Below, one piece after another: positions 3,411-3,633 of a DNA stretch of 49,281 bases (the first letter of the stretch is position 1; each line of letters begins with the position of its first letter). The notes beneath the pieces were generated by a model that saw only the letters and a program-made list of their open reading frames with translations, was not told the DNA's origin and did not search any database. The stretch comes from Gammaproteobacteria bacterium (GTDB taxonomy: Bacteria > Pseudomonadota > Gammaproteobacteria > Pseudomonadales > Azotimanducaceae). Position numbers and translations under genes: made by a program. The stretch spans positions 1 through 49,281 of the forward strand of contig JABGTE010000022.1 in NCBI GenBank assembly GCA_018647445.1. Direction: 5' to 3'.

Positions 3411-3439
3411 TTGACTCCGGGCTTGATTGGAATTACATT
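3411..3439 (+). promoter_or_regulatory. candidate sigma70 promoter for small RNA
   Basis: TTGACT (3411-3416), 17-nt spacer, TACATT (3434-3439). Confidence 0.5.
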
Positions 3440-3445
3440 TTTACT

Positions 3446-3633
3446 CGAACTTTGAAGCGCAGACGTTCTAACCAGGGGGAACCTCCAGCGCGCCTTTTAA
3501 TCCCCTGACCGCAAAGGAGGTGATCCCATCAATAGTCAGTCTATGAGGGGCGCCTCCGAGTTAAATTAACTCGGAGTCCGCTCCCACACGTTAAGACAGA
3601 GCCCCGAAGTGCCTTGGCATTTTGGGGCTTTTT
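3446..3633 (+). ncRNA. candidate independently transcribed small RNA with perfect anti-anti-SD segment
   Basis: Promoter-like elements upstream; AAAGGAGGTGATCC at 3513-3526 (reverse complement of the conserved 16S 3' tail GGATCACCTCCTT[T]); perfect palindrome 3554-3576; strong terminator 3600-3633; no convincing full-length ORF. Confidence 0.55.
3600..3633 (+). terminator. Rho-independent terminator
   Basis: AGCCCCGAAGTGC CTTG GCATTTTGGGGCT followed by TTTT; about 13-bp stem. Confidence 0.85.

Follow-up and report, generated by a model that had tools for sequence, protein, structure and literature searches.

A small, predicted structured transcript of marine gammaproteobacteria in which a complement of the 16S rRNA tail probably serves as an extended Shine-Dalgarno sequence

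Within a 49,281-nt stretch of gammaproteobacterial DNA (the window), a short intergenic transcription unit carries an exact complement of the 16S rRNA 3' end, much longer than a ribosome-binding site needs to be, and raises the question of whether such a block binds ribosomes for a regulatory purpose of its own or starts the translation of something overlooked. An earlier note on this DNA had favoured the first answer, offering a ribosome-binding RNA, a sensor or decoy of the 16S tail, or a leader-peptide device.

The transcription unit and its 16S complement

The promoter and the U-tailed terminator described in the earlier note are present where it had put them (Table 1), and the flanking genes are, as it had said, a PNPOx-family gene and one for a MetR-like LysR regulator. 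A promoter scoring at least 9/12 lies upstream in 59 of 85 homologs, compared with 12% of shuffles, and a terminator-like stem was found in 71 of them; the fold z-score of the region relative to shuffles is -5.4.

Table 1. Features of the element, by position in the window
Feature	Positions	Strand	Details
Sigma-70-type promoter TTGACT-N17-TACATT	3411..3439	+	TTGACT 3411-3416, 17-nt spacer, TACATT 3434-3439
Predicted transcript, about 190 nt	3446..3633	+	inferred from promoter and terminator
5' pseudoknot	3457..3507	+	GCGC 3457-3460/3488-3491; GUUC 3465-3468/GAAC 3479-3482; loop CAGGG 3473-3477 with CCCUG 3503-3507
AAGGAGGUGAUCC, exact complement of the mature 16S 3' tail GGAUCACCUCCUU; putative extended Shine-Dalgarno	3514..3526	+	G002 16S tail, homolog comparison
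Alternative hairpin sequestering the Shine-Dalgarno	3516..3557	+	GGAGGUG-AUCCC with the ORF's own GGGGCGCCUCC; predicted folds
Candidate micro-ORF, 13 codons and stop	3528..3569	+	AUC AAU AGU CAG UCU AUG AGG GGC GCC UCC GAG UUA AAU UAA
3' domain	3548..3585	+	3548-3553/3580-3585 and 3554-3560/3570-3576; covariation
Intrinsic terminator	3600..3633	+	stem 3600-3629, then T run

The block in question, AAAGGAGGTGATCC, lies at 3513-3526, and the 3.0-Mb assembly as a whole has a single AGGAGGTGATC. No 16S copy was detected in that assembly, and the 16S of a same-genus genome, G002, served as reference (tail GGATCACCTCCTTAAAAAATGC). Because this 16S ends in GGATCACCTCCTTA, the match to the mature rRNA is 13 nt and not 14: of the 13-14 nt claimed earlier, the thirteen at 3514-3526 stand and the fourteenth base is a mismatch. 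The thirteen cover what we take to be the single-stranded 16S tail beyond helix 45, and the figure of about 0.0015 chance matches per window given in the earlier note is right (2 x 49281/4^13). Comparison of the remaining RNA with rRNA gave only short or GU-rich pairing matches.

Conservation of the element extends to more than a hundred marine bacteria. Whole-element BLAST recovered it from nearly all same-genus genomes and from four other genera of the window's family, and covariance models placed it in 63 of 201 genomes of that family and in 70 of 137 genomes of a second, Pseudohongiella-type family. A scan of named genomes with a pattern that selected on the Shine-Dalgarno (SD) and ATC returned 94 stretches, nearly all of them marine gammaproteobacterial MAGs, including the K189A clade, Pseudohongiella and OM182. 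Conservation in relatives, a check proposed in the earlier note, was found by BLAST and covariance models for the element and for its anti-SD complement alike. Neither the element nor its ATG-type homologs matched an Rfam 15 family at gathering or relaxed thresholds, in keeping with the note's remark that it recognised no described family, and no homologs were found in the viral contigs, phages, E. coli and plasmids searched.

In the window's family the element is flanked by the PNPOx gene and metR, and five loci (L055, L095, L100, L110 and L114) have it inverted while these neighbours stay in place; in the Pseudohongiella-type family it adjoins an Lhr-like helicase gene (identified by eye). 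The differing neighbourhoods and the inversion mark it as an independent unit. Together with the conservation, the fold z-score and the covariation described below, they bear out the earlier description of a compact, independent and structured transcription unit. They also weigh against the idea that the element acts in cis on an adjacent gene, as a leader or attenuator. It does bear a likeness to attenuators: leader peptides such as trpL likewise combine a short ORF laid over mutually exclusive hairpins with a U-tailed terminator, and here a short ORF with bistable hairpins of SD and anti-SD comes before the terminator. The leader-peptide device was the nearest of the options that the earlier note had listed, but it lacks a downstream gene in cis: past the terminator there is no co-directional gene, the next gene being convergent, and the neighbours differ between families and keep their places when the unit is inverted. 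On this gene order, the cis-leader reading is largely refuted, and we give it hardly any weight.

The reading frame behind the complement

An AUC codon stands 7 nt after GGAGG, the ideal SD spacing, and opens a frame of 13 codons. The earlier note's statement that no ordinary ORF begins at the block holds for ATG, GTG and TTG starts but not for this AUC frame; the 8-codon ATG ORF that it had mentioned was rejected, its sixth codon being ATT, ATC, ATA, AAT or the like in most relatives. The homologous ORFs are 13-15 codons long (17-21 in a few) and share the consensus I-N-S-Q-S-I-K-G-A-S-x. Of 83 distinct 3' segments from homologs, 80 have an in-frame stop at codons 13-16, against a mean of 18.6 and a maximum of 37 in shuffled sequences, and frames +1 and +2 have a stop there in only 16 and 9 of the 83, respectively. 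The conserved stop falls in variable sequence and is written as TAA, TAG and TGA.

The named-genome scan had selected on the SD and ATC; the count of start codons therefore used the 85 homologs that came from BLAST or covariance models, unselected on the start block: 73 have AUC, 11 AUU and one GUU, and AUG, GUG and UUG do not occur. As in genes with non-canonical starts, AUY thus stands at SD spacing in 84 of the 85, and about half (42/85) have no canonical in-frame start in the ORF or in the 66 nt upstream of it; in eight, a stop directly precedes the SD. In genus g47 the spacing between SD and start has changed by 1 nt and a codon-sized 3-nt insertion has been gained, with the AUU frame intact. 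The interchange of AUC and AUU is also expected of an internal Ile codon, and the six C/T changes out of six are not significant against transition bias. Within the AUC clade synonymous change is not in excess (26 observed, 23.2 expected), so that selection on the peptide is not demonstrable, RNA structure constraining the same bases. Across the homologs compared, the start, frame and stop of the candidate micro-ORF are conserved.

At the position of the micro-ORF start, the distant homologs recovered from three other families have AUG. Their peptides are MSNECINGASGGTC (followed by the stop), MSNDSMCAASGATC, MSNRCIIGAPGGTC, MSHRCIIGFSGGAC, MSNRCMYRTSGGTC and MSNGCIEVLTG, and a terminator-like stem follows each of these ORFs. 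GASG-type peptides among them use different synonymous codons (GGC GCT TCT GGA vs GGA GCC TCC GGT).

Given the conserved frame and stop, the AUY starts and the AUG of the distant homologs, an extended SD is the best reading of the 13-mer. We consider it probable that the element is a stand-alone structured mRNA of ~190 nt, the core of which is a micro-ORF of 13-15 codons starting at AUC or AUU, with the 13-mer compensating for the weak start. The element is then probably not non-coding, and the earlier statement that the block is not an RBS is probably wrong, as it occupies the RBS position of a conserved ORF. A non-coding, 30S-binding RNA that uses the 13-mer to titrate or sense the free 3' tails of 16S rRNA, with no productive translation, as the earlier note had envisaged, would fit the exact match to the 13 nt of the single-stranded tail and the absence of a synonymous-substitution signal, and a 30S subunit could park at AUC, a poor start. 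Such an RNA would have no conserved reading frame, however, and here the in-frame stop is kept with three stop types, AUG takes the same start position in distant homologs, a codon-sized indel retains the frame, and the SD itself is predicted to be sequestered. Frame conservation outweighs a simple anti-SD decoy, and we regard the sensor or decoy as improbable and the earlier proposal as probably mistaken.

The translated reading has parallels. The infC gene of G002 (L261) shows AAGGAGG-7 nt-AUU and no canonical start, the same geometry as the micro-ORF, and infC, the IF3 gene, with its AUU, AUC or AUA starts and its autoregulation, shares with it the AUY start and the strong SD; infC, however, encodes an essential protein of roughly 180 aa, whereas the micro-ORF is short, stand-alone and structured. 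In S. aureus, an extended SD is paired with a non-canonical start in cvfC1 (AUU) and ccpN (AUA) (PMC13009471), where it steers initiation to that conserved codon, as proposed here, though these are protein genes (cvfC1 of 61 aa) and not micro-ORFs inside a covarying structured RNA. The sigR gene of Streptomyces starts at GTC and is repressed by IF3 (PMC5472188); it is alike in that a conserved non-canonical start holds translation low, but it is a sigma factor gene and not a small structured RNA. By analogy, the extended SD, 7 nt from AUC, would compensate for the weak start codon, and initiation might be kept low and IF3-sensitive, as for infC.

RNA structure and a possible switch

Covariation, another check that the earlier note had set, was found in both the 5' pseudoknot and the 3' domain. 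In the pseudoknot 97.4% of cells are paired, double (compensatory) changes occur in all seven pairs of the two P1 helices, and the covariation score exceeds those of all 500 shuffles and all slid controls; the CAGGG/CCCUG helix is nearly invariant. The 3' domain, whose 5' arm is formed by codons 7-11 of the ORF, is a hairpin with weak covariation in the window's family; in the Pseudohongiella type it takes the form of a three-way junction, where the third helix covaries strongly, the second little and the invariant closing helix not at all.

In predicted folds, an alternative hairpin pairs GGAGGUGAUCCC with GGG(A)GCCUCC and so sequesters the SD. All 85 homologs are predicted to form it in the nascent fragment, and in 83 of them the SD-paired fold has a slight advantage over the SD-free one (median energies of -41.5 and -38.4 kcal/mol, respectively, in pseudoknot-free energy models). 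According to these models the sequestering hairpin and the 3' domain can compete, from which we infer a bistable SD switch: the hairpin would hide the SD for as long as CCUCC is not taken over by the 3' domain, which a ribosome translating the ORF would then open again. The state of initiation would in this way be coupled to the conformation or stability of the RNA itself, or to micropeptide output.

As for the output, we favour a trans-acting regulatory small mRNA or a dual-function RNA. One form of the latter, a base-pairing sRNA in which the invariant AAGGAGGUGAUCCCAUCAAUAGUCARUC, the 5' loop or both pair with mRNAs in trans and the ORF is a second function, is compatible with the micro-ORF reading and not exclusive of it. 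Near-invariance that does not end with the SD and the start codon but reaches codons 2-5 speaks for it, as does the independence of the unit, which occurs in two unrelated neighbourhoods and is sometimes inverted relative to its neighbours; yet the SD, the ORF and the sequestering hairpin also explain the conserved bases, and we hold this form to be a possibility of the lesser sort. Dual-function sRNAs that could serve as analogues include Spot 42, and to our knowledge its ORF and that of VcdRP use canonical starts, unlike the micro-ORF. VcdRP is likewise a dual-function sRNA (PMC8672173), and both resemble the present RNA, a predicted transcript with a candidate ORF, in being short structured transcripts with a promoter, a terminator and a small ORF.

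Somewhat more speculatively, the element could be a free-standing sensor of the translation-initiation state, in which IF3 activity and 30S availability would decide on translation of the AUC micro-ORF, and the passage of ribosomes would flip the RNA between the SD-sequestered form and the 3'-domain form, the latter acting in trans or setting RNA stability. If the micro-ORF reading holds, extended anti-SD complements could serve as markers of hidden micro-genes that start at AUC or AUU, and the element would offer a natural test system for IF3-controlled initiation outside infC.

Further small ORFs and look-alikes

Four of the AUG-type loci (L162, L257, L258 and L259) have the stop context UGA-C, and a 5' GCGUC in them is complementary to GACGC at the stop; the counterpart in L165 is GGCGUU/AACGCC. 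This pattern suggests a long-range helix at the AUG-type stop that termination would open. In L164 (f228, a 1.3-Mb genome), a weak match at ~1560-1610 consists of TTGGAGGTGGTCCT-ATT with a frame of 14 codons whose last residues, before the stop, are KSGSGGFAF; it is a possible further AUU-start homolog and, as a weak match, was left out of the homolog counts.

Two other hits were set aside. At ~1501-1549 of L252, leuA coding sequence (INSQSGKGG) resembles the start block of the micro-ORF in both DNA and frame, a likeness that is probably coincidence, and L080, from Lachnospiraceae, is a chance pattern match. Four gammaproteobacterial loci (L236, L253, L255 and L256) hold small ORFs with a full-length SD and a ATGTCTAGTG start, for example MSSEINMVSVQPLDLGLETTTGFVLS followed by a stop in L255, and apparently form a separate small-ORF group.
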